Shown: positions 20,748-45,080 of the stretch, one piece after another
Layout: each line of letters starts with the position of its first letter
Position numbering within the stretch: the stretch's first letter is position 1
Assembly: GCF_003056055.1 (NCBI RefSeq)
Contig: NZ_PYFP01000002.1
Coordinates: 992,001 to 1,056,000 of the forward strand
Source: Glaciimonas sp. PCH181
GTDB taxonomy: Bacteria; Pseudomonadota; Gammaproteobacteria; Burkholderiales; Burkholderiaceae_D
Length of the DNA: 64,000 nt
Direction: 5' to 3'
Position numbers and translations under genes: made by a program
Notes under the pieces: generated by a model
Told to the model about the DNA's origin: nothing
What the model saw: only the letters and a program-made list of their open reading frames with translations
Databases searched by the model: none

Positions 20748-20777
20748 GATGCTTTCCCTCTTTTAATAGTTGACGAC

Positions 20778-26459: not shown

Positions 26460-26489
26460 TATCCGGCGCGGAATGCGCTATCCTGAATC

Positions 26490-27440
26490 ATGAAAAGATC
26501 CCTTCCGCCGTTGATGTCCCTGCGTGCTTTTGAAGCCGCTGCCCGTCACATGAGTTTCACCGTGGCGGCAGACGAATTGTGCATAACCCAGAGCGCAGTC
26601 AGCCGCCACATCAAAAATCTGGAAGAACACTATCGGCTGAAACTGTTCAACCGCCTGACCCGCGAAATCGCCTTAACCGAAGAAGGCATTTTGTTGTTTA
26701 GCGCGGTGCAAAAAGCCTTTGATCAGATCGATGCAGTCTCGCGCACACTGACCAAAACCAAACCCACGCGAGGCTTAATCCTCAATATTCTGCCCACACT
26801 GGCATCCACCTGGTTAATGCCCAGACTGGTACGCTTCACGCAAATGCATCAGAACGTAGAGGTCCGGTTAATCACGTCTATCGAGCCGGTCGCTTTTGAT
26901 CGCGACAAAGTCGACGTCGCCATCCGGGTCGGCAAACTGCCAGCGCAACGCCACAAAGACGGTGCGCCCAGAATCGATCTGGTGATGACGAATGAATGGA
27001 AGGGATTAGGTGCCGACAAGTTGTTTCCGGATGTATTGGTGCCGGTCTGTCGTCCAGATTTATTAAAAGATCAGCGCACGATCAAACCAGCCGCGTTACC
27101 CTTTCTGCCACTGATCCATACCGACTCCCGCGCGCATGCATGGGAAGACTGGTTCGGCGCGTTAAACGTCGCCTATCAACCCTCCGCACGGGTACTGCAC
27201 TTCGGGCATTTCTTTATGTCGGTACGGGCAGCCATGGACGGCAAAGGCGTGGCGCTGGTGCCCAGCGTACTGGTCAGCGACGATATCCAGGCAGGCCGCC
27301 TGATCGTGGCCGTGACGGAACGTGTGTCCAGCGATGGCGATTACTATCTGCTGTACAAAAAAGAACGCGCCAAAGATCGGGCGATCGCGGTATTTCGTGA
27401 ATGGCTGATGTCGGAAGTAACGGAATTGCAAAGCCCTTGA
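26490..27440 (+). CDS. LysR-type regulator, GcvA-like
   Basis: 316 residues. The DNA-binding domain reads LPPLMSLRAFEAAARHMSFTVAADELCITQSAVSRHIKNLEEHYRLKLFNRLTREIALTEEG, the GcvA-type pattern. The effector domain includes RGLILNILPTLASTWLMPRL near residue 92 and ends VFREWLMSEVTELQSP. It is divergent from the 12-gene ABC/amidase operon, which it probably controls through the box at 26439-26459. Its last 291 bp plus 76 bp of downstream sequence occur again, 97% identical, at 43746-44112; the copy here belongs to the full-length gene. The repeat marks the left edge of the catabolic island. Confidence 0.9.
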   Translation: MKRSLPPLMSLRAFEAAARHMSFTVAADELCITQSAVSRHIKNLEEHYRLKLFNRLTREIALTEEGILLFSAVQKAFDQIDAVSRTLTKTKPTRGLILNILPTLASTWLMPRLVRFTQMHQNVEVRLITSIEPVAFDRDKVDVAIRVGKLPAQRHKDGAPRIDLVMTNEWKGLGADKLFPDVLVPVCRPDLLKDQRTIKPAALPFLPLIHTDSRAHAWEDWFGALNVAYQPSARVLHFGHFFMSVRAAMDGKGVALVPSVLVSDDIQAGRLIVAVTERVSSDGDYYLLYKKERAKDRAIAVFREWLMSEVTELQSP

Positions 27441-27516
27441 AGTCGGTTTATCCACGCCTGCGCAAAGCTTCAAAACCTTTCGGCTCCCAATCACGTATTG
27501 TCTATAACAAGCCGGT
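27150..27516. repeat. Left 367-bp direct repeat bounding the catabolic island
   Basis: This stretch (3' end of the LysR gene plus 76 bp) is repeated in the same orientation at 43746-44112. I count 12 mismatches and no gaps. In the coding part seven codons differ and six are synonymous, so both copies appear to have evolved as functional gene ends. Homology stops abruptly at GCCGGT on the right and at TGGTT on the left. Confidence 0.92.
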
Positions 27517-27614
27517 CCTGTGCGCGAATGGGACGTGGATTAGCCTCGCTTAAGCTGCAGGCAACATCACATTAACTTGGTGATACTAACCATTTTTTTG
27601 CGATAAAACGAAAC

Positions 27615-27642
27615 GGCTTCGCAGTTTTTCTCTGACGAAGCC
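27615..27642 (-). terminator. Probable terminator of the porin operon
   Basis: GGCTTCG (27615-27621) and CGAAGCC (27636-27642) form a 7-bp stem. On the minus strand it is followed by GTTTCGTTTTAT, a T-rich tail, 20 bases beyond the porin stop. Confidence 0.55.
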
Positions 27643-27661
27643 ACTATCGCCATTACAGAGA

Positions 27662-28798
27662 TTAAAAACTGTGGCGCATACCTACGCGGATAAGCGCCTG
27701 GCTATTCGTTGATGACGCTGACAAGCCCTGAATCTGTGCTGCGGGCCCGCCATTTCCACCGGCGATAAACGGATCGCCGCCAGCGCGCTGAAAAACGCCT
27801 TCAGTGTATAAAGTGGTGCGCTTAGACAGGAAGTAATCTGCCAGTACACCGAATTGATTAAACTTTGAATTGGTCACCCCAGGACGACCGCTGATATCGA
27901 CTGTAGTGTAGGTATAGGCGAACGAAAGCATCAGCGTTGGCGCGACCAAATACCGAGCGTTCAATTCATAGTTATTAAAATTATTGTTAATCCCGCTGGT
28001 CAGCGTCGGCCCGACATTGTTGTACCTGGAGCCAGACCAAGCTGCGCCCAAAAGCGCCGGGCCTATCTGATAGCTGCCACCCAAGCCATACATCCGTGCG
28101 CGTGAGGCCGTCACCGGCGCATCTGGCGCAGTGCCTGCCGGATTCGGATTGGTGGTGCTGGCGCCGCCATTATCCAGTTCGAGATAACCTACGCCCAATT
28201 TGAGTGGACCATTTTCATATTTTGCGCCGGCACCCCAGGCTCGGTCATTTCCAAAAGCACCGCTCTGATTACTAAATGCGTACATTACGCTTGAACTAAA
28301 ACCGCCATAGGTATTACTTGCATACTTGACGGCGTTGTTAAAGCGAATCGTGTTAGCAGCGTTGTCGTTATCAAACGGATGCGTAAAATAGATACCGGTA
28401 AAGCCGGCATTCGAAGTCAATGGTGCAAAATTCCCCACCAACGGATCATATTGACGGCCAGCTGTCAGCGTACCCCATTGCGTACTTTGCAGGCCGACAA
28501 ATGCTTGCCGTCCGAAAAGTTTGCCGCCTTGACCAAGTGCCCCGGTGCCTGGATCAAATCCGGTTTCCAGGATAAAAATCGTTTTCAGCCCACCACCGAG
28601 ATCTTCTGAACCTTTAAATCCCAAGCGACTCGCTTGTACGCCAACACTGGTAAGTTGCACGTTCGTATTGCCCTTTTGATTGGTGGAGTAAGTGATGCCC
28701 TCGTCGAGCACCCCGTAGATGATTACGTTAGTTTGCGCAGAGGCAAAATTTGCAGTGCAAGCGACCATTATTGCGGAACTAGCTAATACTTTTTTCAT
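27662..28798 (-). CDS. General bacterial porin (Omp32/OmpC-like)
   Basis: 378 residues. A signal peptide (MKKVLASSAIMVACTANFASA) is followed by NVIIYGVLDEGITYSTNQ, the standard opening of betaproteobacterial trimeric porins. GSEDLGGGLKTIFILETGFDPGTG and FGRQAFVGLQSTQWGTLTAGRQYDP are the conserved strands before the constriction loop. The chain ends ALIRVGMRHSF with a terminal Phe. It admits small anions through the outer membrane. It is the last gene of the minus-strand operon starting at 34340 and probably provides entry for the island substrate. Confidence 0.9.
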   Translation of the reverse strand: MKKVLASSAIMVACTANFASAQTNVIIYGVLDEGITYSTNQKGNTNVQLTSVGVQASRLGFKGSEDLGGGLKTIFILETGFDPGTGALGQGGKLFGRQAFVGLQSTQWGTLTAGRQYDPLVGNFAPLTSNAGFTGIYFTHPFDNDNAANTIRFNNAVKYASNTYGGFSSSVMYAFSNQSGAFGNDRAWGAGAKYENGPLKLGVGYLELDNGGASTTNPNPAGTAPDAPVTASRARMYGLGGSYQIGPALLGAAWSGSRYNNVGPTLTSGINNNFNNYELNARYLVAPTLMLSFAYTYTTVDISGRPGVTNSKFNQFGVLADYFLSKRTTLYTEGVFQRAGGDPFIAGGNGGPAAQIQGLSASSTNSQALIRVGMRHSF

Positions 28799-28937
28799 GA
28801 TTTACACCTGTCTCCGTCAGTTAAAATTATTACCCATTTTTTTACCGCTAACAAATGCGTAAGGCTCGGCCAATGAAAACAGGTTAAAAAATTTGGACGA
28901 AATTGCTTTCATCTAAGCCTTGTTGATTGCTAATTTC

Positions 28938-29711
28938 TTATTGCCCAGTGAAGGATGGCTTTCTGCGCTCTGCGAATGCAGCTGTTCCTTCTTTCACGTC
29001 AGAGGTCGATTGAAGAAGCCTGACCATCGCATCTTCTAACCGGATGCCAACATCCAGACTCATGCCTCGAGATCTGATTGCCAGTTCCTTCGTTGCCTGG
29101 ACCGCGAGCGGTGCATTCGCGACAATTTGCTCGGCTAAGGCTTCGGCTTCAGCGAGGAGCCGAGCTGGCTCAACAATGCGATTGATCAACCCTCTTCGTT
29201 CGGCTGTTTCAGCGTCAAAGGGTTTTCCGGTCAGCAGAAGTTCCATTGCTATCGCGCTGGGGAGTTCTTGCATCAGCCGTTGCGTTCCTCCGCAGCTCGC
29301 CAGAACGCCCCATCGAACTTCAGGCGTACCGAATGTGGCGTGGGGAACGCTGATCCGAATGTCTGTGGCGAGCAGAAGCGTCATTCCACCACCCAGACAA
29401 TGGCCGTTGACTGCTCCGATGACTGGCTTCCAGATATCGATTCCGCGATCGGGACGCAAACCGGCCTGGCTGGTCCAGGTGTCGGATATGGGCGGTGGTT
29501 CAGGGATGTATTCCCTTAGGTCAGCTCCGGCGCAGAAAGCCCGCTCTCCAGCACCCGTTAAGATAGCAACGCGTATGTCCTTGTTATCCCGAACTTCCCT
29601 CCACGCCGAGGCGAGGTCATCGAGCATTGCGTGGGTCAAGGCGTTAAGCCGTTCGGGACGGTTGAGCGTGATGGTCGCAATACTTTGCGTAACTTCAAAT
29701 TTGATAGTCAT
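28938..29711 (-). CDS. Enoyl-CoA hydratase/isomerase (crotonase family)
   Basis: 257 residues: ITLNRPERLNALTHAM near residue 12, GERAFCAGADLREY near 55 (oxyanion hole), GAVNGHCLGGGMTLLLATDIRI near 100 and FGTPEVRWGVLASCGGTQRL near 128. Both glutamates of true hydratases are in place, in TPEV and in AMELLLTG. It should hydrate an enoyl-CoA, although crotonase relatives also do retro-aldol or ring reactions. It lies between the CoA ligase and porin genes, so it probably acts on the product of that ligase. Confidence 0.88.
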   Translation of the reverse strand: MTIKFEVTQSIATITLNRPERLNALTHAMLDDLASAWREVRDNKDIRVAILTGAGERAFCAGADLREYIPEPPPISDTWTSQAGLRPDRGIDIWKPVIGAVNGHCLGGGMTLLLATDIRISVPHATFGTPEVRWGVLASCGGTQRLMQELPSAIAMELLLTGKPFDAETAERRGLINRIVEPARLLAEAEALAEQIVANAPLAVQATKELAIRSRGMSLDVGIRLEDAMVRLLQSTSDVKEGTAAFAERRKPSFTGQ

Positions 29712-29769
29712 AATTTTCTCAATATTTTTTGCGCCAGCCGAGCTGCAGACGCAGTTTTCAATTCACACG

Positions 29770-31338
29770 TCATTGCGCGCTGCGATCCCATGTTCGATGC
29801 TCTGTTTTCATGGATCGAAGTTCCTCTTTTTTAGCTCTGAAAGTATGCGTTTTCGGGATCTCTGAAACCGATACAATGTAGCGAGGCAGCATGAAGCGCG
29901 GCACCCTGGCGGATAGAAACTCGATCAATCCGACGGGGTCTATATCCTCTCCATTTTTTGTTACGACAAATACCTTGATATCTTCTTCGCCCCATTCGGA
30001 AGGAACGCCGATGGCTGCTGATTCGGCCACGTCTGGATGTGCATTGACCTCCATCTCGACCTCTGTCGAAGACACGTTCTCACCACGTCGGCGGATAGCG
30101 TATTTCATCCGATCAACAAAGAAATAGTTGCCTTCGGCGTCGCATTTAAATGCGTCTCCGGTATGCAGCCATTGATTGCGCCAGACTTCGGTCGTCGCAG
30201 CGGGGCGGTTCCAGTAACCAGACATGAGTTCCCAAGGGTGCTCGGTGCGGATTAACAGCTCACCCACGGTCCCCACCGGAACTTCCTCGTCGTGATCATC
30301 GACGATACGACATTGCACGCCGGGTCTCGGACGACCGCAGCTGTCGCCGGGGCCGAGTTGCCATCCGGTTACGATTGGACAACTGGTTTCAGTCATATTG
30401 AAAGCGGTACACAGCCGGACGCCAAAGCGTTCCATGAAGGTATTCGGATTGGATGGAAGCGGGCACACATAGACGTTGCGCAAAGGATGCTTTTTATCCT
30501 CAGCACTAGGCGGTTGCGCTTCCAGAAATAGGATGGTGGAGCCAACCAGCATCGTTGTGGTACATCCGAAGCGCTTGATGTCGTCCCAGAACTGGCTGGT
30601 ACTGAAGGTTTCTCTGAGAACCAAGGTTGCATTGGCCATCGCCGTGCCAACGACGCTTAATTTCCCGCTGACATGATAAAGTTGCCAGGGACAGTACCAA
30701 ATGTCCTCCGACGTCAGATCTTCAATGGGAATACACCATCGCGCCGTTTCAATCAATTGGCGCCAGGACATCATTACCCCTTTTGATGGCCCTGTAGTGC
30801 CGGATGTGTAGACAATACAGGCGAGGTCATGCGAAGCCAATTGGGGCAGCGCAAGCGGCGGCAGTTCGCATTTTGTCAGCGGAACGCGCAAATCAAAAAA
30901 CGAATTACCAGTCTCCGGCAGATCGCCGACCACGATGATCGTTTCGACGTTGGGTATGTCGGATTTAATTTCCTCGAACCTATCCAGATAGCGTGCATGA
31001 ACCACCAGGCATCGCGCGCCACAATCGTTGACAACATGGCTTAGCATATTGCCGAGGTATCCGGAATTGATAGGAACCTCGACGGCGCTCAGACGTGCAA
31101 TCGCCATCCATACGGTGATCGATTCAACGCTGTTTGGCAGCATGACGAGTACATTTGAAGATGCTCCTACGCCCGCTCGACTCAGTGTCTCAGTCCAGGT
31201 TCGAACATTGCCCTCCATTGCGGCATAGGTGACAGCCTCGCCATCGACTGTGCGGATGAACGTAGTTTCAGGGTGAGAGCTTGCCCTGTCAGCCAGGATA
31301 TTTGGAAGCGATTGGCATATCGAATCGGTTTGGAGCAT
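29770..31338 (-). CDS. AMP-dependent acyl-CoA ligase (CaiC/benzoate-ligase-like)
   Basis: 522 residues of the ANL superfamily. The P-loop is IVYTSGTTGPSKGVMMSW near residue 175, the A5 region is TAFNMTETSCPIV near 305, and the hinge is YFFVDRMKYAIRRRGENVS near 415. The A10 region reads IPKTHTFRAKKEELR: the lysine that normally follows Gly/Gln (PKTxTxK) is Arg here, although lysines follow closely. That lysine positions the carboxylate for adenylation, so the change deserves notice. It should activate a carboxylic acid to its CoA ester in the cytoplasm. Operon neighbours are an ACMSD-fold amidohydrolase upstream and a crotonase downstream. Confidence 0.85.
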   Translation of the reverse strand: MLQTDSICQSLPNILADRASSHPETTFIRTVDGEAVTYAAMEGNVRTWTETLSRAGVGASSNVLVMLPNSVESITVWMAIARLSAVEVPINSGYLGNMLSHVVNDCGARCLVVHARYLDRFEEIKSDIPNVETIIVVGDLPETGNSFFDLRVPLTKCELPPLALPQLASHDLACIVYTSGTTGPSKGVMMSWRQLIETARWCIPIEDLTSEDIWYCPWQLYHVSGKLSVVGTAMANATLVLRETFSTSQFWDDIKRFGCTTTMLVGSTILFLEAQPPSAEDKKHPLRNVYVCPLPSNPNTFMERFGVRLCTAFNMTETSCPIVTGWQLGPGDSCGRPRPGVQCRIVDDHDEEVPVGTVGELLIRTEHPWELMSGYWNRPAATTEVWRNQWLHTGDAFKCDAEGNYFFVDRMKYAIRRRGENVSSTEVEMEVNAHPDVAESAAIGVPSEWGEEDIKVFVVTKNGEDIDPVGLIEFLSARVPRFMLPRYIVSVSEIPKTHTFRAKKEELRSMKTEHRTWDRSAQ

Positions 31339-31463
31339 GGTCTATTTTCCAATATCAAAAAATTTGGGCGCAAAGGGACCCTTGCAGTACGAGTGAGAAA
31401 ATTAGCGATATCGCATTTTGCTTGTTACGACTACAAGTGAAACTCAGTGAAGCTTGGTGACGT

Positions 31464-32462
31464 TTAGCGTTCGAGCAGCGCAATCACATTTCCGCGTGCG
31501 ACCAGTTCCCGCTGATCGGCTGGCAAGGAGTCCAGAACAGGGAAAGACCGGCGACCTTCAGGATCGCCGATGTCGAAGGGATAGTCCGTTCCAAACACCA
31601 CGCGATTCGCACCCATTTTTTCGATGAGGAAACGGTTACTATCTTCGCTCAAGGTACACGTGTCGTAATAAAGATCTTTCAAGTATGCGCTGGGTGCCTT
31701 GGTGATATATTTTCGGCAGTAAGGATCTGCCTCCCAGCCGGTAGCCTCGTAAGCTGCGTCGAGACGGCCACTCAGAAAGGCCAGATTTCCGCCTCCATGC
31801 GCCAGAATGAGCTTTAATGCGGGATGTCGCTCGAAGAATCCCTCGAATATCATGCGGGTAACCGCCAAGGTTGTTTCATGCGGAAAGCCAACCAGCACGT
31901 GGTTCAAATAATGGCCGTAGCGCTCGGTATGCATCTCCGTGGGATGCATGAAAAGCATAATACCTAAGCGTTCCACCATCTCGAATACGGGACTAAAAAT
32001 GGCATCGTCCAGCGGACGACCTCCTGCGGTCGAAGGAATCATCGCCGCACGCATGCCATAGTCCTCGACGGCGCGTTTTAATTCATCCGCAGCACGATCA
32101 GGTTCGCCCAACGCCAGCACTGCCATGGCTTCGAGCAATCCCTCGCCGTCTTGAGCGACCTCGGCTGATTGCTTGTTCAATGCGCGAGAAAGCGCGACGT
32201 TGGCTGCGCTTCCTTTCCAAGACAGAAGGAATGGCTGTGGACCAAAGAACTGCTTTTCGATCTTGCGCTTGCGCATGCCGTCGAGACGATAGGGCATGTC
32301 GTAAAGATGCTTATCTAGTGTGCTCTTATTTCGCTCATCGCCCGGGTGCCGGACCTGAAAAAGCCCCCCCTCTTTGCTACACTGCAACCCAGCAATTGGC
32401 GTGCGGGCGAGATCGTGAAGAAAGCGCTCCGAAAATGCGTGTCCGTGAACGTCTATAACCAT
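31464..32462 (-). CDS. ACMSD-type amidohydrolase/decarboxylase
   Basis: 333 residues from the ATG at 32462, which has a strong GGAGG nine bases upstream; a longer frame to 32516 lacks this. All metal ligands of the amidohydrolase_2 family are visible: MVIDVHGHAF at the start (HxH), LGIMLFMHPTE near 165, LKLILAHGGGNLAFLSGR near 215 and NRVVFGTDYPFDIG near 290. Characterised relatives (ACMSD, gamma-resorcylate and 5-carboxyvanillate decarboxylases) remove CO2 from aromatic or muconate-type acids, with zinc or manganese. It follows the TetR gene by 347 bp and precedes a CoA ligase, so it may decarboxylate a precursor before CoA activation. Confidence 0.85.
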   Translation of the reverse strand: MVIDVHGHAFSERFLHDLARTPIAGLQCSKEGGLFQVRHPGDERNKSTLDKHLYDMPYRLDGMRKRKIEKQFFGPQPFLLSWKGSAANVALSRALNKQSAEVAQDGEGLLEAMAVLALGEPDRAADELKRAVEDYGMRAAMIPSTAGGRPLDDAIFSPVFEMVERLGIMLFMHPTEMHTERYGHYLNHVLVGFPHETTLAVTRMIFEGFFERHPALKLILAHGGGNLAFLSGRLDAAYEATGWEADPYCRKYITKAPSAYLKDLYYDTCTLSEDSNRFLIEKMGANRVVFGTDYPFDIGDPEGRRSFPVLDSLPADQRELVARGNVIALLER

Positions 32463-32809
32463 CTTAACCTCCGATACATTAGAATATTTATGAAAGATTC
32501 CAGTGAGCTCTAGCAATTTTTATATGCTATGTACTATGAATTAAAGATCACAAAACGATGACTGTGATGCGTTGCTGGAAACTGCGAAAGTAAACACTAG
32601 CGCTAAGAAAGCGTGCTGAGCGCACATGCTAGTACGCGCTCTTAGCGAGGAACTCGCCACACCCAGACAGGTTGGCAAGTATGCAAAGCGACATCAAGTC
32701 GATGCGTTTGTTCGGGCGGAACGAGTCCCCGGCTCTCAACTTGTGGTGAGAGACCTTCATCTATGCAGCACGAAGTTATCGTGCCTCCGATGTAAACTCT
32801 ATTGCCGTC
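32463..32809. other. Intergenic region with a long inverted repeat
   Basis: These 347 bases separate the amidohydrolase from the TetR gene, both on the minus strand. CGCTAAGA (32601-32608) and TCTTAGCG (32640-32647) flank partly paired AAGCGTGCT/AGTACGCGC arms and could form a long hairpin without a T tract. No protein family was recognised. A separate promoter for the amidohydrolase is possible. Confidence 0.45.
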
Positions 32810-33427
32810 TTATGTGAAAATTCCCCGTTCAATCAGCTTTCGATATGCGTCTCTAACGAAGCTTGGAATCGGTCTAACCTTTCCATCTGAATAGGCGTAC
32901 TCCTGGCCCAGAGAGGCACGAATGCCCATTAAGATCGCCACGATTGCATCGAGTTCGTTCTCATCGTAGCCTTTGATGTTGCCATTCTTGTGTGCTCTGC
33001 GGAGAGTAGATTTATAATTCCCCGTGATGTTTTCGAAGTGCTTCTTATATCCTTCCGGGGCAAAAATCTGTGCCTCGTTAAGGACGCGATAGAACTGAGG
33101 TTTCTTTAACAGAAACTTAAAGAAGGCGTCGAATCGCTGCATTTCTCGCTCAATTGCATCTTCCGCTGTTACCTCGCCGGAGATAAAGTCGAGCATCATT
33201 TCACCCATCGCCACGAGGACTTGATTCAATATGTCGTCTCGGGATTCGAAGTAGTTATAGAAGGTACCTTGAGCGACGTTGGCCAGGTCGGTGATCTTTG
33301 CGATCGATGCATCGGCGTAACCATATTTCCCGATAATATCCATTGCCGCCTCCAACAAATTCTGTCGTACCTGTACCGACTTCTCGGCGCGGGTGAAGCG
33401 CTTACCTGATTCTTTTGTCTTCAACAT
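32810..33427 (-). CDS. TetR family transcriptional regulator of the island
   Basis: 205 residues. The N-terminal DNA-binding domain reads RQNLLEAAMDIIGKYGYADASIAKITDLANVAQGTFYNYFESRDDIL, the canonical TetR helix-turn-helix. The C-terminal ligand domain is helical, with FDAFFKFLLKKPQFYRVLNEAQIF, similar to regulators of aromatic and acyl-CoA catabolism. It is the only regulator inside the island and lies 49 bp after the MaoC-like gene. Three copies of a 21-bp dyad occur at the island promoters, one of them controlling the operon that contains this gene, so it is the natural candidate repressor, autoregulated and released by a CoA ester or acid. Confidence 0.88.
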   Translation of the reverse strand: MLKTKESGKRFTRAEKSVQVRQNLLEAAMDIIGKYGYADASIAKITDLANVAQGTFYNYFESRDDILNQVLVAMGEMMLDFISGEVTAEDAIEREMQRFDAFFKFLLKKPQFYRVLNEAQIFAPEGYKKHFENITGNYKSTLRRAHKNGNIKGYDENELDAIVAILMGIRASLGQEYAYSDGKVRPIPSFVRDAYRKLIERGIFT

Positions 33428-33476
33428 AGTCAGTGCTCTTTCGACTTACTCAAAAAGTAACGTAGTGGAAGTGACG

Positions 33477-34340
33477 TCAACGAAATTCCGCAATTCCATG
33501 TGTTAGCGCCAGGTTTCCTGAGGCGTTTCTTACGGCAAACGCCACTTCCCGTCCGTCAGGTGAATCGGATGTATGTTCAATTGTGATGGGCAGTCCCGGG
33601 ATAACAGGCGCCTTAAAGCGCACAGCTATTCGGGCAAGGCGACCAGGATCGCCATCGGCGTAGAAATCAATCAGCTTCTGCGCTGTCAGCGCCCAAGTTG
33701 CTGAGCCGTGCAGAATAATATCGTCTAAGCGATTCTGCTTGGCGAAAGACTTTTCAGTATGGATTGGATTCCAAATTTGGGAACACTCGGAATAGAGGTG
33801 AGGATACAAGCGCTGAATCGGCAGCGTAATGCGATCGAAGCCCGCTGGCACTTCGGCATCCGGCCGCAAGAGAGGCGACTCTTCTTCGCAACGATCATCA
33901 CCGTCAACAGATGTATTCAAGAAGATACCCCCCCACCAACTCGACACCATCGGTTGTGCTGTCACAGCATCCACGGTTTCAAGCTTAAGCGCTACATAGG
34001 CCCCGGCGCGCGTCTGGCGAACTGCTGCAATCCGACCGGTGGTACGCAATGATTGCCCCTGCTTGATCAAAGCATGGAAACGCGAATCTTGTAACACATG
34101 GACAGAACCAAGCGCTTCTTCTGGGCTGGAGAAATCTCCCAATTCACTCCACCAACCGCTTACCACTGGCCACTCGAGGCAGACTGCGAACGGCGGGGGC
34201 GCCACAACTTCCGACGTTAGGTCATTGGTATAGCAGTCTTTAATAGCCCCAAGCACGGCCGCATAAGCTTGCACGCGCCGCAATGTTGCGACTACCTCGG
34301 ATTGACCGGCAGTCCGGCCCACAATGCTTGATGAAATCAT
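33477..34340 (-). CDS. MaoC/FAS1-like acyl-CoA dehydratase
   Basis: 287 residues with two hot-dog halves. The N-terminal half starts MISSSIVGRTAGQSEVVATL and contains VAPPPFAVCLEWPVVSGWW, as in FAS1-like dehydratase domains. The C-terminal half has SQIWNPIHTEKSFAKQNRLDDIILHG, which carries the Asn/Asp-x4-His hydratase motif. Length and wording resemble itaconyl-CoA and mesaconyl-C4-CoA hydratases. It should hydrate or dehydrate a beta-hydroxyacyl-CoA. It is the first gene of the minus-strand operon MaoC-TetR-amidohydrolase-ligase-crotonase-porin, with promoter and operator at 34478-34505. A broken second copy of its 5' end lies at 40974-41102 in opposite orientation. Confidence 0.8.
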   Translation of the reverse strand: MISSSIVGRTAGQSEVVATLRRVQAYAAVLGAIKDCYTNDLTSEVVAPPPFAVCLEWPVVSGWWSELGDFSSPEEALGSVHVLQDSRFHALIKQGQSLRTTGRIAAVRQTRAGAYVALKLETVDAVTAQPMVSSWWGGIFLNTSVDGDDRCEEESPLLRPDAEVPAGFDRITLPIQRLYPHLYSECSQIWNPIHTEKSFAKQNRLDDIILHGSATWALTAQKLIDFYADGDPGRLARIAVRFKAPVIPGLPITIEHTSDSPDGREVAFAVRNASGNLALTHGIAEFR

Positions 34341-34527
34341 GTTATCTACCGTTGTTGGGATCAGTCACGACCACGGCTTCTTTGGCGCCTTGACCCTCTG
34401 ACAAATCATTTTTTTAAACTCGAATCCTGGTGAGTGCAATACCACGCCTACTTCGCAAGCGGCAGGCGCTCCCCACCATTAAATGAATGATGACTCATAA
34501 ATCAATTTTAAGCAAGCATTTATGTCG
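34263..34527. repeat. Inverted repeat, left copy (MaoC 5' end plus upstream region)
   Basis: The first about 78 bp of the MaoC-like gene and 187 bp upstream match 40787-41051 in reverse orientation, with no net gap (paired coordinates add to 75314). The distal 45 bp (34483-34527) carries only two mismatches; the rest is more diverged. It includes operator A. Confidence 0.85.
34478..34505 (-). promoter_or_regulatory. Promoter and TetR-type operator A of the MaoC operon
   Basis: On the minus strand TTGATT (34505-34500) and TTTAAT (34483-34478) are separated by 16 bases. A 21-bp dyad at 34484-34504, of form TGAAT-N2-TGACTCA-N2-AATCA, fills the spacer and overlaps the -35 element, the classical position for a repressor. 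The same dyad is found at 40810-40830 and 40432-40452. Confidence 0.6.
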
Positions 34528-34559
34528 CAATTTAACGCTAGAATATTCGTCGCGTTGTC

Positions 34560-36275: not shown

Positions 36276-36412
36276 TTTGTCACCTCCATTATTAGAAAAG
36301 GTCTGGCCTCCTCCGGTTCTGAGCTTTTTTATAACCGTTCAGGCATATTCTGAACACGCATCGTAGATGTGCATCAACTAGCGCTAAGACGCGGTCCAAG
36401 AACAAGCTCAGC

Positions 36413-36611
36413 GTTATCTCAGCGTTGAGCTGATCGGGATACTCTGCGTTGTTAGCCGCAGTAGCCGCGACTTTCCTTAAGACCCCTCAATTTCCCATAT
36501 CCGTCGGCGCGTCTGAGCCGAGCATCAACTTCGCTAGGTCGCCATACTTCAAGCGCAATGCAAGTGAAGTCGCCGAGTGCATCACAGTGTCGAAATACAG
36601 TGACTTAAACA
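36413..36611 (-). pseudogene. Amidohydrolase 3' remnant (duplicate of the gene at 38156-39166)
   Basis: Reading the minus strand gives LYFDTVMHSATSLALRLKYG and KLMLGSDAPTDMGN, then a TGA, after which VLRKVAATAANNAEYPDQLNAE continues. This matches the C-terminal region of the ACMSD-type gene at 38156-39166 (its 38200-38394 segment), with many substitutions and an in-frame stop. The rest of the copy is deleted. It sits between the two MFS paralogues, where an intact copy would be expected after tandem duplication. Confidence 0.85.
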
Positions 36612-36641
36612 GGCGCATCCATGGGGGTGCTTTATTTAATT

Positions 36642-37988
36642 TTAAGAATTCAGCTCACGCTTTTTCAATCTACGACTGAAGTAGAAAAGAGCAAACGTTG
36701 CTATCCCGGCGATGAGTTGCGGAACGATTGCCAATCTAAATACATTCTCGGCTGAAACATTGATGGAAAGGAGCAGTCCGGCAACAGTGGGCCCGACGAT
36801 ACCGCCGATCCGTCCCATTGCAAGACCCCAACCCAAGCCTGTGGAACGGATGGCCGTTGGATAAAGTCCGGCGGCAATTGCGACAAAGCCGATCATGCCT
36901 GCAACTATGCACGCTCCCGCGACTAATGCGATAAGACACAACAGGGCGATCGAACCGGGCGAAACACTAATTAAATAGATGAACAAGCACGCTGTGACAA
37001 ATGCGGTGCCCAATACTAAGGCAGGCTCAAAACGATCCATTAGTCTGCCCAACAGAAACGAACCAATTGGCGTCCCAAACTGGAATGCAACGGCCACTAC
37101 AAATGATTGATGCAGATTCAGGCCTCGCGCTAGCAGCAAGGAAGGGAGCCACGAGAGCATGAAGTAGATGACAAGATAGCCGAAGGCAAATGTAGTCCAC
37201 AGTAAAACGGTGATCGGCGCTCTTCCTTCTGTGAATAGCTTTTTAACCGGTTGTTTTCCATCTTTTTCCTTCAAACTAGTGGTGAAGATCGGCGTATCGT
37301 GTTCCGTGAGTGACGGCGATATCCTCATGATGGTCTTTAAGACGTCGCGCCTCGGCTTCTCTTTTGCCACCATAAACTGGATCGACTCTGAAAGATAAAC
37401 CGCCATTGCACAAGCGACGAGTGCGGTGACGACTCCTCCAAATACGAACACTGCGGGCCAGCGAAAGTGCGCTGTAAGTTGCTCAGTTACCACCGCAGAC
37501 GCCGCACCACCCACTGAAAAGAAGCAGTACATCAACATAACAGTTGTGACCCGAACTTTAGTCGCGACGCTTTCAGATGTCAGGGCAACCGCAACAGGAA
37601 GCGTCCCGCCAATCCCAATACCGGTGATCAAACGCATGATGAGCAATTCTTGAACTGAGCTAGCGAATGCCGTCAGAAGCATTGAGGCGCTGGTCAACAG
37701 CATGCATGCCAGCAGCGCAGGTCGTCGACCAAAACGATCCGAAATGAACGCGGCCAGAATGGACCCAATTAACATTCCGAAGACACCAGCAGAGAAGACA
37801 ATTCCCATGTCGAGTCGGGCAATTTTCATTTCCGCAGACAATAATGGGGCGACAAAAGATATTACTTTCGTGTCAAACCCATCAATCATTGCTGCCATGG
37901 CACACAGAAAGGCAATCATAAATTGTCCTTTCGAAAAGGACTGCTTACTTAAAAAATCCTGGATGTCTATAGTTGCGCCATATTTCAT
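36642..37988 (-). CDS. MFS transporter, AAHS type, copy 2
   Basis: 448 residues, beginning MKYGATIDIQDFLSKQSF and FMIAFLCAMAAMIDGFDTKVISFVAPLL. The DGFD motif, FISDRFGRRPALL and LYPTAIRSTGLGWGLAMGRIGG are all present, so it should be functional. It resembles copy 1 along its whole length but differs in the cytoplasmic loop and C-terminus. Copy 2 keeps the presumed original neighbour: the intact amidohydrolase gene ends 167 bp upstream. The two carriers may import different members of a substrate group. Confidence 0.88.
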   Translation of the reverse strand: MKYGATIDIQDFLSKQSFSKGQFMIAFLCAMAAMIDGFDTKVISFVAPLLSAEMKIARLDMGIVFSAGVFGMLIGSILAAFISDRFGRRPALLACMLLTSASMLLTAFASSVQELLIMRLITGIGIGGTLPVAVALTSESVATKVRVTTVMLMYCFFSVGGAASAVVTEQLTAHFRWPAVFVFGGVVTALVACAMAVYLSESIQFMVAKEKPRRDVLKTIMRISPSLTEHDTPIFTTSLKEKDGKQPVKKLFTEGRAPITVLLWTTFAFGYLVIYFMLSWLPSLLLARGLNLHQSFVVAVAFQFGTPIGSFLLGRLMDRFEPALVLGTAFVTACLFIYLISVSPGSIALLCLIALVAGACIVAGMIGFVAIAAGLYPTAIRSTGLGWGLAMGRIGGIVGPTVAGLLLSINVSAENVFRLAIVPQLIAGIATFALFYFSRRLKKRELNS

Positions 37989-38155
37989 TTTCTAATCTCC
38001 ATTGTTAGACAGCTAACCGGTCGCAATCCGGCCTTCAATTCCTTCATGCGCGGCATAGACAAGGAGGCGTCTTTTGAATGACGCTTTTTCACTCCTCGAT
38101 TTGTGATTTTTTTCAGATCCGGCAACGCATCTTCCGAGCGTGCGATGTCAATCGA

Positions 38156-39166
38156 TTAGGTATGCACGTCGCGTGGTGCTGCGAATAAATTCCGCGCAGT
38201 CTCTGCATTAATCTGATCGACATACTTAGAATTGAAAATAGCGGACGTTGCGAATTTCTGTAACATTCCTAAATTTCCCATATCCGCTGGCGCGTCCGAA
38301 CCCAGCATTAACTTGGCGGGGTCGCAGTACTGCCAGAGCAATTCAAGTGAAGTGATCGAGTGCATCACCGTGTCAAAATACAGTGACTTAAACGCTTCGG
38401 TAGGCGATCGTGCGCAACGCTCCTGTTGCTGGAGATTGTTCTGCCATGCAGCCTCCCATCGACCAAGTAGTATCGCGCTGGTACCTCCTCCATGTGCGAA
38501 TCCGATTTTGAGATCGGGCAGCGTGTCGAGAAAATCACTAAAAATGACGGATTCAATCGCAAAGGCTGTGCTGGTCGGCAATCCGACGAGGTTTCTCAAA
38601 TAGGCGAATTCGAGAGCCTGTTCGCCGACCTGCTGTTGCGTGAGCGGATGCACAAAAACGAAGATCCCAAGCTTTTCGGCTTCGCGGAAAAAAGGCCGCA
38701 ATTCCTCAGAAGAAAGCGCTCTCCCGTTGATAAATGTGCCGATCTCGACTGCCCTGATCGACAAATCTTTCGCCATGCGGTGAAGCTCGCGACACGCCAG
38801 ATCGACATCCTGTAGCGGGACGGTGCCCATGGCATAAAAGCGACCCGGGTGCTTCACGGTAAATTCAGCGTAGCTGTCGTTAATAATTTGCGCCAACTCT
38901 AGAGCGCGAACCGGGGTATCGCCGTAGTGGAAAAGAAAAGTCGGCGGTGAAATAACGTGGGCAGAAATGCCATTGCGATCCATGTGTTCAAGGATATGGA
39001 TCGGATCGAACCAAATAGGAGACAGGGCGAACGTCACGCCGGCGGTCTCAATCGAAGGCCGATCGGAGTGAGCGCCGCTGACACGTAACGACGAAACGTC
39101 CGCTCTTGCCTCTAATTCATGAAGATACTGCAATGGAATCACGTGAGTGTGGGCGTCTATGATCAT
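38156..39166 (-). CDS. ACMSD-type amidohydrolase/decarboxylase, intact metal site
   Basis: 336 residues. MIIDAHTHVIP provides the HxH pair, LGIFVFVHPLTQQ the second histidine (about residue 178), LKIGFAHGGGTSAILLGRWEAAW the third (about 230) and KLMLGSDAPADMGNLG the aspartate (about 293). The fold belongs to amidohydrolase_2, whose known members decarboxylate ACMS, gamma-resorcylate or related acids. It overlaps the preceding gene by four bases (ATGA), so both are translationally coupled: the upstream product is a paralogue without metal ligands. The two may form one heteromeric enzyme. A broken duplicate of its 3' end lies at 36413-36611. Confidence 0.88.
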   Translation of the reverse strand: MIIDAHTHVIPLQYLHELEARADVSSLRVSGAHSDRPSIETAGVTFALSPIWFDPIHILEHMDRNGISAHVISPPTFLFHYGDTPVRALELAQIINDSYAEFTVKHPGRFYAMGTVPLQDVDLACRELHRMAKDLSIRAVEIGTFINGRALSSEELRPFFREAEKLGIFVFVHPLTQQQVGEQALEFAYLRNLVGLPTSTAFAIESVIFSDFLDTLPDLKIGFAHGGGTSAILLGRWEAAWQNNLQQQERCARSPTEAFKSLYFDTVMHSITSLELLWQYCDPAKLMLGSDAPADMGNLGMLQKFATSAIFNSKYVDQINAETARNLFAAPRDVHT

Positions 39167-40098
39167 AGCGATTTACCTCCACCGTATAGTCTTGCGGCAT
39201 TATTTTGCGTATAGAGCAAGGCTTGATTTTCGCTGTCGGATTCCCCAAACGTTCTACGGGCGCGATCAAGCTCGCCATCAAGGGAGCGCTCAGCGCTAGC
39301 GAATACGATTTGTTGCGGCCCAATGCTGTTAATGGCAGCGGTTAGCGCCGCGTTGTCCAGCGTGCTTGCATCGAAAAACACGTTATTAAGATAACGGGAC
39401 GGAGGGTGAGGTATAAGCGCCTGACATTCGCGCCGAACGCGATAACCATGATCCCACCGCGAGATCAAGGAAGGGGCAGCGCCTCCGCCCTGATCCAGAA
39501 ACACCAGAAGCTCAGGCAGTTGCTCAAAGTGACCGCGGAAAATCAGCCGAGCCAAACAGATCGCGAGATCCACCGACACCCCTACATTCTCTTGCTGGCG
39601 CTGGTCGATCTGCGGGCCGCCGTCGCCGAGTCCCTCGGAATAAATAAAAACCGGCTTCCTGTGACGCGCAGCAAAAGAGAGAAGCGGCTGAAACTCGGCA
39701 TCGTCGATACGCTTTCCTGAATAGCTGGTCGGGACGGCAACACCGTGAAATCCATGCTCCATTGCCTGCTGAAATGCGGCAGCGCCAAATTCACCATCGT
39801 CCAAATCAAGTAACGCCAGCGCAGCGAGACGGCCGCATGAAATGTCCACCATTTCTTTGAGCGCACTATTGCAGTGGCGCAGTCGGTCTCTGTCATTGCC
39901 GCAACTTTTTACCAAAGCGCGCGGCGCACACAGAACCTGCATTGCCACACCGCACCGGTCCAACTCAGCGAGCCGAAGTTCTACCGCCTTTTCTAACGCA
40001 TGGCGATCTGATCCGGAGCGATCCCATCCATACAAGTCATAAGGCATATCGCCTGACCGGGCATCAATGACTCCTTTCGACGCAACGTTACTTTCCAT
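39163..40098 (-). CDS. Amidohydrolase_2-fold protein lacking all metal ligands (pseudoenzyme)
   Basis: About 311 residues from the ATG at 40098 (MESNVASKGVIDARSGDM). Secondary-structure landmarks of the ACMSD family are clear: GVAMQVLCAPRALV, GFHGVAVPTSYSGKRIDDAEFQPLLSFA, LARLIFRGHFEQLPELLVFLDQGGGAAPSLISRWDHGY, RYLNNVFFDASTLDNAALTAAI and QIVFASAERS, ending ARLYGGG. Every metal position has changed: the HxH strand is IDARSG, FxHP is FIYSEG, AHGGG is DQGGG and GTD/GSD is ASAE. It cannot bind the metal as its neighbour does. It is first in the minus-strand unit and overlaps the intact paralogue by ATGA, suggesting a regulatory or structural partner. Longer frames to 40302 encode implausible Cys-rich sequence. 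Confidence 0.75.
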   Translation of the reverse strand: MESNVASKGVIDARSGDMPYDLYGWDRSGSDRHALEKAVELRLAELDRCGVAMQVLCAPRALVKSCGNDRDRLRHCNSALKEMVDISCGRLAALALLDLDDGEFGAAAFQQAMEHGFHGVAVPTSYSGKRIDDAEFQPLLSFAARHRKPVFIYSEGLGDGGPQIDQRQQENVGVSVDLAICLARLIFRGHFEQLPELLVFLDQGGGAAPSLISRWDHGYRVRRECQALIPHPPSRYLNNVFFDASTLDNAALTAAINSIGPQQIVFASAERSLDGELDRARRTFGESDSENQALLYTQNNAARLYGGGKSL

Positions 40099-40786
40099 GA
40101 TTTTTCCCAATTCATACGATACCGTTCTTGGCGAAACAGTCGCGTGCGCAAACCACCAAGAGCTACTAAAAATCTTAATGAAAGAACCACTCCGCTTAGC
40201 TAAACTGCACGCGCCGGAACGGCAGACGATTTCACATACACAAGCACATTCTTTAGTACAGATCCTCCAACAGCTTTTAAAATACTTCGGACAGTTGCGC
40301 ATTTAAAGATCGGCGTTTTTTTTCGTCAGCTCGACGTTTCCGACACCAGCACCGTCCGAAGTTACCCCACTCACTACTTCGGCTTAAGTTGCTAGCTTCG
40401 CAAGTCCACCACACGCATTTTCCTCCATTTACGAATAATGATTCACAATTCATTTAATGTCAACAGCAAAAATTACGCGTCCGTACCGACTTTATTCGGA
40501 AGGATTTTTGCGGCGTCGGATTGTGCTCAATAGGCAGCTCAAGCAGGGGAAAATTGCGGCTTAGAATTACTGTCGTGCCTCATCGGAATGGCCGCGTGCA
40601 GCCCGCAGACATATCGGCTGCAGCAACATTACCGGCGGTGCTTGCTGCAGCACAGAGCATGGAGAAGCGTTGAATATCGCAGCATCCCTCTTGATTCCGC
40701 GCATCAAACGACTTAACTTCCAACATGGGCGGGTGCCTTCCATGCCGCGATCAATGACAGCTCTACAGATACTCCAGAGTCGATGA
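40099..40786. other. Non-coding region upstream of the pseudoenzyme operon
   Basis: Nearly 700 bases without a recognisable gene. It contains promoter and operator C (40432-40463) and, to the right, sequence of no recognised family up to the inverted repeat at 40787. A short open frame at 40567-40827 on the minus strand begins inside the repeat and looks accidental. Confidence 0.5.
40432..40463 (-). promoter_or_regulatory. Promoter and TetR-type operator C of the pseudoenzyme-amidohydrolase-MFS unit
   Basis: On the minus strand TTGACA (40463-40458), 17 bases and CATTAT (40440-40435) form a strong sigma70-like promoter. A dyad of the form TGAAT-N2-TGAATCA-N2-ATTCG at 40432-40452 covers the -10 and spacer and matches operators A and B. 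It drives transcription toward the gene starting at 40098, leaving a leader of about 330 bases. Confidence 0.55.
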
Positions 40787-41051
40787 CGACATAAATGCTT
40801 GCCTAAAATTGATTTATGAGTCACCATTCATATATAGATGCGAAGCGCCTGCTGCTACAGATTGATCTGTAGCGTTGCGCCGATCAGGATGCTAGTTTTC
40901 AAAATTGATTTATTAGAGGATCAAGGCATCAAAAAAGCCGCGGTCTGTACTGATTCCACCAACGGTAAAAAAGATGATTTCAGCAAGCATTACGGGCCGG
41001 ACTGCCGGTCAATCTGAGGCAGTCGCAACATTGCAGCACGTCCAAGCGTGT
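40787..41051. repeat. Inverted repeat, right copy
   Basis: Reverse-oriented partner of 34263-34527 without net gap. It holds operator B, its promoter and the beginning of a MaoC-like gene facing right. The two copies enclose 6.26 kb with the IS3 remnant, both MFS genes, the amidohydrolases and the remnant. Confidence 0.85.
40809..40836 (+). promoter_or_regulatory. Promoter and TetR-type operator B of the ligase operon
   Basis: TTGATT (40809-40814), 16 bases and TATATA (40831-40836) form a plus-strand promoter. The 21-bp dyad at 40810-40830 (complement reads TGAAT-N2-TGACTCA-N2-AATCA) lies between and over the -35, exactly as at operator A. Transcription would run through the MaoC remnant into the CoA ligase and citrate-synthase-like genes. 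Confidence 0.6.
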
Positions 41052-41102
41052 GCGACAGCTTGCAGCACAGTTCCGCGCTGGGGGAGCCATCTTGAAGATT
41101 AG
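40974..41102 (+). pseudogene. MaoC-like gene, 5' remnant
   Basis: The frame starts MISASITGRTAGQSEAVATLQHVQA, nearly the N-terminus of the MaoC/FAS1-like protein encoded at 33477-34340, then loses similarity and ends at TAG 41100-41102 after 42 codons. The rest of the gene is gone and a CoA ligase starts 51 bp further on. It may now act only as a leader peptide between promoter B and the ligase. Confidence 0.8.
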
Positions 41103-41153
41103 AACCACTTCAATTTCGCCATTCGCCTAAACTTCTCACGAATCAATTCAAAC

Positions 41154-42719
41154 ATGTCTCAACATCAAGAATTTGGCCAGACCGACTGGTCCTTTGCAGA
41201 ATTACTAACCAAGGAATCGCATCGTCTGGCATTCCGTTGCGGCGAAACTTCAGCAACCCGCGCTGAGCTTCACATCGCTGCACGACGAGCAGCCGCTTAC
41301 CTTAGCCACCTGGGCTTGAAGCGTGGCGATGTTTTGGCATTGTGGCTGCCTGATGGCGGAACGTGGCTGCAGTTTCTGTTTGGCGCAGCTACCTTGGGAG
41401 TGCTCGTAATACCAATCAGCACGCGATACCGTTCGCAGGATGCGCATCACGTTATACAAACGTCGGGAGCAAAAGCCATTGTTTTGATGCCGAACTTCCT
41501 TGGGTTCGATTACCTCGGCACGGCGCGCAGCATACAGAGTCTATCCCCCGATCTGAAACACATCATCGAGATCGCATATCCAGACGACCTGTTCCCGATC
41601 GATCCCGCGCTTCCATCAGCGCCCCCAACCGGTACGCCAAGCGATGCGCTATGCACCTTCGGCACCTCTGGAACAACAGGACGTTCCAAGCTTGCGGTTC
41701 ACGATCAACTAGGCGTCCTTCGTCATGGGGAGAATGTGGCGCACGCCATTGATCTACGCGTTGGCGACGTAATGCTGTGTGCCTTATCCTTATATGGCGT
41801 AATGGGTTTCGTACAAGCAATCAGTGCACTGGCTGGCGGCGCAACGTGTCTTTTCCTTCCAGTTTTCAATGCTGAAGCAGCCACAACGCTCATCGAAACT
41901 CATCACGTCACACATTTTTTTGGCTCCGACGGAATGCTCTCATCGGTGCTTGATGAAAAAGGTAGATCGCTAGCCACCTGGCGCCGCGGAGGCTTCGCTG
42001 ATTTTACCGGGCTAGCCGCCAAGATTGTCGAGCAAGCAGAGCGAGAACTAGGCCTACACCTTGTGGCTATCTACGGATCCTCTGAAAGTTTTGGTCTTAC
42101 CAGCGCCCAACTGCCAACAGACACGCAGGCACAACGAGCGATCCCCGGTGGCATACCGATCTCACCTGAGATCGAATTTCGAGTTGCCGATCTTCAAGGC
42201 GGTCAAATGCTGTCAGACGGACAGCAAGGCGAGTTGCAACTTCGCGGCTATAACGTCATGACAGGCTATCTGAACAACCCCTCGGCGAGCGATTCCGCTT
42301 TTACATCTGACGGATGGTTTCGCACAGGAGATCTGGGTTACACAGCAGAAAGACGTTTCGTTTATTTATCGCGACTCTCCGATGGCTTACGGCTGCGCGG
42401 CTATTTGGTCAATCCCGTCGAAATCGAAGATTACCTATCTATACATGAAGACGTTTTAGATGCGCAAGTTGTCGGGGTGAACCAAGTCGGTGAAGGCGAC
42501 CTCGCCATCGCATTCGTTCGTTGCCGGCGTCCCGCCGTCACAGAAGACGCGCTTCTAGCCTATTGCAAATCAGGGATGGCAGCCTATAAGGTCCCACGTC
42601 GCATTCTGTTCGTATCTGAATATCCAACCGTACAGGGACCCAACGGCACCAAAATATTGAAGAAAGAATTGCGCGAGATCGCCCGAATCGCTGTAGAGAA
42701 ACCGGGTAATCAGGCTTGA
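41154..42719 (+). CDS. AMP-dependent acyl-CoA ligase, benzoate-CoA ligase-like
   Basis: 521 residues of the ANL superfamily. The P-loop is CTFGTSGTTGRSKLAVHDQ near residue 170, LVAIYGSSESFGL near 302 is the A5 motif, and GWFRTGDLGYTAERRFVYLSRLSDGLRLRGYLVNPVEIEDYL near 390-425 the hinge region. The A10 region GPNGTKILKKELRE keeps the catalytic lysine. It converts a carboxylic acid to its CoA ester. It is the first intact gene behind promoter B and is followed 185 bp later by a citrate-synthase-like gene. It differs clearly from the island's other ligase (29770-31338), so two different acids or two steps may be activated. Confidence 0.87.
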   Translation: MSQHQEFGQTDWSFAELLTKESHRLAFRCGETSATRAELHIAARRAAAYLSHLGLKRGDVLALWLPDGGTWLQFLFGAATLGVLVIPISTRYRSQDAHHVIQTSGAKAIVLMPNFLGFDYLGTARSIQSLSPDLKHIIEIAYPDDLFPIDPALPSAPPTGTPSDALCTFGTSGTTGRSKLAVHDQLGVLRHGENVAHAIDLRVGDVMLCALSLYGVMGFVQAISALAGGATCLFLPVFNAEAATTLIETHHVTHFFGSDGMLSSVLDEKGRSLATWRRGGFADFTGLAAKIVEQAERELGLHLVAIYGSSESFGLTSAQLPTDTQAQRAIPGGIPISPEIEFRVADLQGGQMLSDGQQGELQLRGYNVMTGYLNNPSASDSAFTSDGWFRTGDLGYTAERRFVYLSRLSDGLRLRGYLVNPVEIEDYLSIHEDVLDAQVVGVNQVGEGDLAIAFVRCRRPAVTEDALLAYCKSGMAAYKVPRRILFVSEYPTVQGPNGTKILKKELREIARIAVEKPGNQA

Positions 42720-42904
42720 TTTTTCATTAGAAAATCGCCAGGCAGATCAGCGCAATTAAATACCAATCTCGTGGGCAACGTTAACGAAAGTTGTCGTCCA
42801 CGGTATCGACTTCTGAGATAAAGATTCTAAAGACGAAGCTGCGCACGATGGTCGCAGTTAAGTTATCCCTTTCATCAAGCTTACAAGAAGAAGGATCCAA
42901 AATT

Positions 42905-43687
42905 ATGAAAGATGCACAAGTAAAATCCGATATCGCATGGGCGAACCCGTCAAAAGTCGTGGTTCACGGGCTTGATCTGTGTGACGAAATTGTAGGGAAA
43001 ATCGATTTTGGACAGATGACTTTCCTGCAGCTGTTCGGTCGTCTTCCAGACGCCCGTGAGTTGCAGATGTTCAATGCAATGATGGTTGTTCTCGTTGAAC
43101 ATGGCATCACGCCGTCGTCCCTCGCCACACGGTTCACGTATTGCGGCGCTCCAGAAGCGGTTCAGGCAGCGGTCGCCGCAGGACTGCTCGGGCTTGGTTC
43201 GGTGTTCGTGGGCTCGCTCGACAACGCAGCCAGACTGCTTCAGGAGACGATCCCCTTCAACACATCGCTGTCCGACCCGAAGGCGAAGGCAGTCGAAATT
43301 GTGACCAGCTATCGCGCCCGCAAGGAAATTATCCCCGGAATCGGTCACCCCTTCCACAAGCCTATCGATCCGCGTAGCGTAGTACTGTTTAAAGTCGCAA
43401 GGGAAACCGGATATTACGGACCATATGTTGAATTAATGGACGCGATTGGCAAGGAAGCCACCCTCCAATCGGGGCGGCCCCTTCCATTGAACGTAACTGG
43501 GGCGATGGCTGCCGTTGCCTCGGAGATGGGGATTAACTGGAAGATTTGTCGCGGTCTCGCTGTCGCCGCGAGAGCAGTCGGACTGGTGGGACACGTGTTG
43601 GAAGAGATGCGCCAACCCATGGCAGAGACGCTCTATTTGCGCATCGAACACGAGGCGACGAAACATATGCACGAAGAGCAAACCTGA
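42905..43687 (+). CDS. Citrate synthase-fold protein (citryl-CoA lyase-like)
   Basis: 260 residues from the ATG at 42905, which has AAGGA upstream; longer frames from 42791 add unlikely sequence. It matches the short citryl-CoA lyase class: VHGLDLCDEIVGKIDFGQMTFLQLFGRLP at the start, IIPGIGHPFHKPIDPRSVVLF near residue 155 with the CS-type histidine and arginine, and GINWKICRGLAVAARAVGLVGHVLEEM at the end. The segment LPLNVTGAMAAVASEMG occupies the position where relatives have LNxDG, so the catalytic aspartate appears as Thr. It may cleave or form a 3-hydroxyacyl-CoA carbon bond. It is the last gene of the island before the right direct repeat. Confidence 0.78.
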   Translation: MKDAQVKSDIAWANPSKVVVHGLDLCDEIVGKIDFGQMTFLQLFGRLPDARELQMFNAMMVVLVEHGITPSSLATRFTYCGAPEAVQAAVAAGLLGLGSVFVGSLDNAARLLQETIPFNTSLSDPKAKAVEIVTSYRARKEIIPGIGHPFHKPIDPRSVVLFKVARETGYYGPYVELMDAIGKEATLQSGRPLPLNVTGAMAAVASEMGINWKICRGLAVAARAVGLVGHVLEEMRQPMAETLYLRIEHEATKHMHEEQT

Positions 43688-43745
43688 TGTCTCCTCCGCC
43701 TGCTAGCGAACTACATGCTGGTAGGCTGAGACGATCGAGCCACTG

Positions 43746-44036
43746 TGGTTTGGCGCGTTAAACGTCGCCTATCAACCCTCCGCACGGGTACTGCACTTCG
43801 GGCATTTCTTTATGTCGGTACGGGCAGCCATGGACGGCAAAGGCGTGGCGCTGGTGCCCAGCGTACTGGTCAGCGACGATATCCAGGCAGGCCGCCTGAT
43901 CGTGGCCGTGACGGAGCGCGTATCCAGCGATGGCGATTACTATCTGCTGTACAAAAAAGAACGCGCCAAAGATCGGGCGATCGCAGTATTTCGTGAATGG
44001 CTGATGTCGGAAGTAACGGAATTGCAAAGTATTTGA
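43746..44036 (+). pseudogene. LysR gene 3' fragment
   Basis: Within the right direct repeat, the frame encodes NVAYQPSARVLHFGHFF...VAVTERVSSDGDYYLLYKKE and ends VTELQSI, the C-terminal third of the LysR protein at 26490-27440. The helix-turn-helix part is absent, so it cannot act as a regulator. Codon differences from the intact gene are almost all synonymous. Confidence 0.9.
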
Positions 44037-44112
44037 AGTCGGTTTATCCACGCCTGCGCAAAGCTTCAAAACCTTTCGGCTCGCAATCACGTATCGACAA
44101 TAACAAGCCGGT
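43746..44112. repeat. Right 367-bp direct repeat bounding the island
   Basis: Same-orientation copy of 27150-27516 with 12 mismatches. It holds the last 97 codons of a GcvA-like LysR gene (to the stop at 44034-44036) plus 76 bp. The sequence after 44112 differs from that after 27516 and probably represents the original chromosomal neighbour of the LysR gene. Confidence 0.92.
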
Positions 44113-45070: not shown

Positions 45071-45080
45071 AAGCCACCTT

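Follow-up and report, generated by a model that had tools for sequence, protein, structure and literature searches.

How did two slightly different copies of the 3' end of one lysR regulator gene come to stand on either side of a ~16.2-kb catabolic block in Glaciimonas sp. PCH181? The window analysed here, a stretch of 64,000 nucleotides, is C2:992001-1056000 of the genome (G000), where C2 is a 1.67-Mb contig (NZ_PYFP01000002.1). Positions 27150-27516 and 43746-44112 align without gaps at an offset of 16596, with 12 mismatches in 367 bp (~97% identity). Similarity then fades, weakly reaching ~27522, so that the shared segment, which joins the end of lysR to the end of a neighbouring regulator gene (hth), is ~373 bp long. 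An earlier note on this DNA had reported the repeat, with 12 of 367 positions mismatched and six of seven codon changes synonymous, and both realignment and a genome search confirm it. The genome search returns the pair at E 9e-175, a repeat finder recovers it independently (97% over 300 nt), and no third copy was found in the whole genome (5.32 Mb, 6 contigs), in which the search placed the sequence only at these two positions. A 97% match over this length is no chance resemblance. The locus is judged from the assembly, in which 12 sites distinguish the two copies and both sit within a 1.67-Mb contig; we consider an assembly artefact extremely improbable. The features that define the locus are as follows.

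26490-27440, plus strand: intact lysR gene, 316 amino acids
27150-27522, plus strand: left copy of the lysR/hth segment, with the hth tail cut at ~27522
27448-27522, minus strand: cut C-terminal hth tail of the left copy, with a stop codon
27523-43745: putatively inserted catabolic block, ~16.2 kb
43746-44118, plus strand: right copy, made up of a lysR 3' end without its head and the hth tail
44044-44462, minus strand: decayed hth regulator gene that runs across 44112/44113, with residues ~53-125 in one frame and ~190-244 in another

The 76 bp behind lysR are duplicated, as the earlier note stated, but they are not plain intergenic DNA: on the opposite strand they encode the C-terminus of a Cro/C1-type regulator, whose gene, hth, is convergent with lysR. 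Minus-strand frames at 44044-44547 and 43758-44462 contain pieces of a regulator of ~246 amino acids, and a query with residues 1-117 of the longer frame retrieved seven relatives, one of them named (Herbaspirillum autotrophicum). The relative P0055 has a Cro/C1-type helix-turn-helix domain; its residues 53-125 match at 77% and residues 190-244 at 91%, in two different frames, and the middle and N-terminal part are lost. The genome itself gives two matches to P0055 (best E 2.7e-29), which are presumed to be the 44044-44462 pieces. The hth stop and last 22 codons fall within the repeat. In the right copy the hth frame continues through 44112/44113, whereas in the left copy the match ends at ~27522. 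Within the tail, a tryptophan kept in the seven relatives has become a cysteine in the right copy; in the left copy, T replaces the S of P0055 and a stop replaces an L. Judged from these frames, both hth tails are decayed and the right copy appears to retain the original neighbour. This supports the view in the earlier note that the sequence from 44113 onward was the original neighbour of lysR, given that hth crosses 44112/44113 and is cut in the left copy.

The left joint can be placed closely. A second porin gene on contig C1 (G000:C1:35946-37283) is 87% identical over 27525-28853, including the 3' flank. The 3' flank of the island porin starts at 27525 and the hth tail ends at ~27522, which places the joint to ~2 bp; since this flank is known from the C1 copy, porin-linked sequence reaches within 2 bp of the hth tail. 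Each copy of the segment truncates the opposite neighbour, and the whole segment is present at both ends. Because hth is continuous on the right and cut on the left, lysR and the sequence from 44113 onward look older and 27523-43745 looks inserted.

We give about an even chance to homologous, Campbell-like integration of DNA that carried the block together with a ~373-bp lysR/hth segment. The older order would have been lysR, then convergent hth, then a Tad pilus locus. Incoming DNA from a close lineage would have brought the catabolic block with its own allele of the segment, and recombination by ordinary homology at that segment, in a single crossover if the DNA was a circle or by an equivalent route, would have produced a complete lysR with a cut hth tail, the block, and a lysR fragment without its head, followed by the original right-hand neighbours, hth and Tad. 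A single crossover between circle and chromosome leaves such a product, which would explain why hth is cut on the left, lysR is cut on the right, and a whole segment stands on each side. The integration of a circular element proposed in the earlier note thus fits the anatomy; we infer the circularity of the intermediate, as well as the direction, RecA dependence and donor of the event.

The pattern of differences between the copies bears on whether the right one is a displaced allele or a decayed duplicate. Seven lysR codons differ, six of them synonymously and one by P to I at the last residue (dS 0.091 synonymous and dN 0.009 nonsynonymous differences per site over 95 codons). Decay of a headless copy and divergence of two constrained alleles were simulated under four settings of 1500 runs each, and runs with seven differing codons were kept. 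At most one amino-acid change occurred in 33, 55, 17 and 40 of 1500 runs under decay (1-4%) and in 1195, 1274, 538 and 673 of 1500 under two constrained alleles (36-85%), a 17- to 36-fold preference for two alleles. The mismatches lie at 27155, 27320, 27323, 27326, 27389, 27434, 27435, 27436, 27487, 27499, 27501 and 27503 of the left copy and are clustered: six neighbouring pairs fall within 3 bp (matched in 5e-5 of 20,000 shuffles), a mismatch cluster takes in the third positions of three successive codons, and an identical run of 164 bp inside the repeat is equalled in 0.9% of shuffles. The 12 differences are therefore not independent events, and their clustering fits mosaic recombination. 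These results also bear on illegitimate repair or template switching, which could have placed the block while duplicating 373 bp of the recipient, with copies that were initially identical and later diverged. Such an insertion would leave identical anatomy; short words, which may be chance matches, are shared near both joints, namely an 8-bp word, TCGAAGGG, found near the left joint both in the continuation of hth and in the flank of the C1 porin, and ACTG near the right joint; and the hth tail, with its amino-acid changes and stop, resembles unconstrained sequence. The rarity of at most one amino-acid change among seven codons in the decay simulations and the clustering of the mismatches argue against it, and we regard illegitimate insertion, though one of the main rivals, as unlikely.

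Several results weigh against integration by homologous recombination. All three differing codons of the shared hth tail alter the residue, compared with one of seven lysR codons (Fisher p=0.033). The allele argument is carried by seven clustered codons only, and the clustering weakens the 17- to 36-fold preference; a displaced allele is favoured by the simulations, but the 'this means' with which the earlier note stated it was too strong. No island-free allele was found among five genus genomes, 392 family genomes searched by DNA, a LysR scan of an 84,980-species collection, plasmids and phages, and no circular form of the island was found. lysR and the Tad ATPase gene were not found in the four other genus genomes, and island DNA has weak matches (65-70%) in two of these four. 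With lysR and the Tad ATPase missing from all four and island DNA represented by these weak matches, it is the hth remnant from which the order of events is read. The seven hth proteins have no match at 1e-3 in eight Tad loci, L077 and L030-L032, and in five hth loci of relatives nothing related to lysR or the Tad genes of the window was found at 1e-10 (a Tad ATPase match occurs in 185 family genomes and an hth match in 269; loci were fetched from 8 and 5 of these, respectively). The GC content at third codon positions (GC3) of the island is also close to that of 237 background open reading frames (ORFs; mean 0.567, p=0.18), and it is the flanks that depart from this background (p=1.2e-4). The idea that hth is an old companion of Tad or lysR was rejected, with no co-occurrence in the fetched loci.

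Mean GC3 is 0.546 in the island (12 genes), 0.604 in the gene cluster to its left (10 genes) and 0.622 in the Tad locus (6 genes); island and flanks differ (p=9.6e-5), and the left cluster and Tad do not (p=0.48). Composition thus changes at both boundaries, in agreement with 27523-43745 as the insertion, without demonstrating a foreign origin. Island GC (0.513) is genome-like, and the tetranucleotide distance of the island, 15.6, exceeds that of 18 of 20 genome segments, the 18th and 19th of which lie at 14.8 and 16.0; the left cluster is at 15.3. A foreign origin by composition was dropped because GC and GC3 of the island are genome-like and the left cluster has a comparable tetranucleotide distance. 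The same values bear on another order of events, with the newcomer on the right: the lysR fragment, hth and Tad would have been joined to an existing lysR-porin-block locus. In favour of this order, the genus sample shows Tad, the lysR cluster and the island each to be accessory, and GC3 is genome-like in the island and not in its flanks. However, the left-copy hth is cut and joined to the porin, which marks the left arrangement itself as derived, and GC3 is alike in the left cluster and Tad; we judge a newcomer on the right to be improbable.

Wider searches place the locus among its relatives. As a DNA query, lysR matched one of 392 family genomes, the window's own. The genus DNA search matched four of five genomes, its own included, and the other three only in the transporter part of the query. 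The Tad ATPase occurs in one of five genus genomes (the same one) and, across the family, in 185 of 392. A LysR protein that is 96% identical, P0001, exists; in a protein search of 40 genomes, LysR proteins of other genomes reach at most 41% identity over most of their length among the matches listed. One scan of named genomes with the LysR protein confirmed six loci. Three of them are close, those of Pandoraea capi, Pandoraea anapnoica and Pararobbsia silviterrae, and their LysR is 67% identical. The comparison with related genomes suggested in the earlier note has therefore gone no further than named relatives at 67% in protein, and it leaves the proposal neither refuted nor beyond refutation. 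Of the island proteins, the citryl-CoA lyase-like enzyme has matches in 20 of the 392 genomes of the family. The match in G002, a genome of the same genus, is 55% identical, and the 19.5-kb stretch around it also contains matches to a LysR (34%), an enoyl-CoA hydratase (31%) and a short-chain dehydrogenase/reductase (SDR; 25%); this stretch shows resemblance at the family level only. An island amidohydrolase has a relative, P0064, at 85% identity. The phage collection has no match to island DNA. Plasmid searches with one query returned eight records, each with at most 14% of the query covered, and island DNA matched one plasmid record (4% covered at 74%).

In integrase-type genomic islands and integrative and conjugative elements (ICEs), accessory genes lie next to a gene whose 3' end has been restored. 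The Glaciimonas locus resembles them in that the target 3' end is restored and the displaced end lies at the far side. It differs in that no integrase was found within the block or close by, the window is free of tRNA genes, and the repeat (367-373 bp, 97%) is not a short identical attachment (att) repeat. The earlier note had seen neither an integrase nor a tRNA at the island, and this holds: ARAGORN found no tRNA in the window, and no integrase gene was found at an island end, where the Pfam-scanned island genes are metabolic, regulatory or transport genes. Tyrosine recombinase (PF00589) matches number 12 in the genome; the nearest lie at ~507,000 and ~1,613,000 on C2, where the island occupies ~1,019,500-1,035,700, so that they are >500 kb off. 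No tyrosine-integrase hit therefore falls within 500 kb on the contig; serine recombinases, transposases and other classes were not searched genome-wide. Assigned genes leave 2807 of 16223 island bases uncovered, and no recombinase or transposase family was found in 20 scanned of the 34 leftover frames of at least 40 codons, in which one match (E 0.04) fell below the cut-off. A site-specific element that targeted the lysR 3' end and has since lost its integrase would typically leave a restored target gene and a displaced 3' end, and the genome does have tyrosine recombinase matches. Given their distance, the lack of a recombinase in the island genes and frames scanned, and the length and imperfection of the repeat, such an element is very unlikely.

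Other known processes offer parallels. Homologous recombination with circular intermediates has been proposed for Rhs C-terminal displacement (PMC2935791). As in the displacement of Rhs tips described there, an intact gene is followed by inserted DNA and then by a displaced 3' part of that gene, which lacks the head and forms a near-identical direct repeat; unlike the rhs tips, which are non-homologous, the lysR 3' ends encode the same residues save the last, and the insert is catabolic. Homology-facilitated illegitimate recombination (HFIR) joins homology at one end to microhomology (3-10 bp) at the other, and integration of ligated circles by single crossover is also described (PMC3240628); HFIR generally deletes recipient DNA and inserts ~1 kb. 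In the Glaciimonas locus, unlike in that account, recipient DNA is duplicated around 16 kb; on the recipient side, parts of hth are gone and the recipient segment is duplicated. Transformation produces merodiploids of Streptococcus pneumoniae in which repeats and homologous exchange duplicate ~100-900 kb (PMC3784515). The lysR locus shares with these merodiploids duplicated sequence without an active transposase, and differs in that ~373 bp is duplicated. The event is of a known kind, of which this locus is a clear example, and no new mechanism is called for. It is very doubtful that the lysR 3' end acts merely as homology, at which circles with a few hundred bases of the lysR/hth junction deliver catabolic blocks repeatedly, recombinase-free and rhs-like, with the regulator left intact and a displaced end remaining each time. 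The locus shows how metabolic genes can become established in a chromosome with the target regulator left whole and no integrase to be found. Remains of a neighbouring gene offer a readable boundary that separates an old arrangement from an insertion when no relative is at hand, and close strains would allow the event to be dated and its donor named.

The block itself contains the following gene groups.

27662-28798, minus strand: porin
28938-34340, minus strand: enoyl-CoA hydratase, CoA ligase, amidohydrolase, TetR regulator and MaoC-like dehydratase
34890-40302, minus strand: two aromatic-acid-symporter-like major facilitator superfamily (MFS) carriers and two amidohydrolases
41154-43687, plus strand: CoA ligase and citryl-CoA lyase-like enzyme

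Together these comprise two CoA ligases, three amidohydrolases, two MFS carriers and one each of the other named families. The citryl-CoA lyase-like enzyme is the sole protein of ten scanned above an NCBIfam cut-off, and the MFS carriers resemble aromatic-acid symporters below the cut-off of that family. These families suggest that the block may serve to take up an aromatic or cyclic acid and to degrade it by a CoA-dependent route. Positions 34260-34527 and 40787-41054 form a 268-bp inverted repeat (79%), in which the start of the maoC operon, its first codons and the region upstream of them, recurs before the CoA ligase operon; it is perhaps a shared promoter or operator. An old tandem duplication spans 34890-39166, with the two MFS genes 72% alike over 300 nt and a remnant of an amidohydrolase 3' end (36400-36610) that matches 38183-38393 at 74%.

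The block is flanked by two further gene sets.

16767-26251, minus strand: left cluster of amidase, RraA-like, SDR, aspartate-dehydrogenase-like, polysaccharide-deacetylase-like and sugar ABC transporter genes, with lysR last (from Pfam and gene order in relatives)
44874-53265, plus strand: Tad/Flp pilus locus, whose flp, prepilin-peptidase-like and ATPase genes were matched in eight fetched family loci

The order of the ten genes from amidase to lysR (16767-27440) is kept in all three close loci (L030-L032), so that lysR closes the left cluster, in accord with the proposed integration. In L030, no relative of any window ORF was found behind lysR at the cut-off used. This ten-gene cluster is itself an accessory unit, kept in Pandoraea and Pararobbsia, and its lysR was not found in the four other genus genomes. 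The other ORFs of the Tad locus presumably correspond to cpa-type genes. Behind flp, a second flp-like stretch at 45255-45440 is apparently decayed and weakly matches L069. Far to the left, at 1646-3035, an aminotransferase-like gene is seemingly split into two overlapping frames, as by a frameshift.

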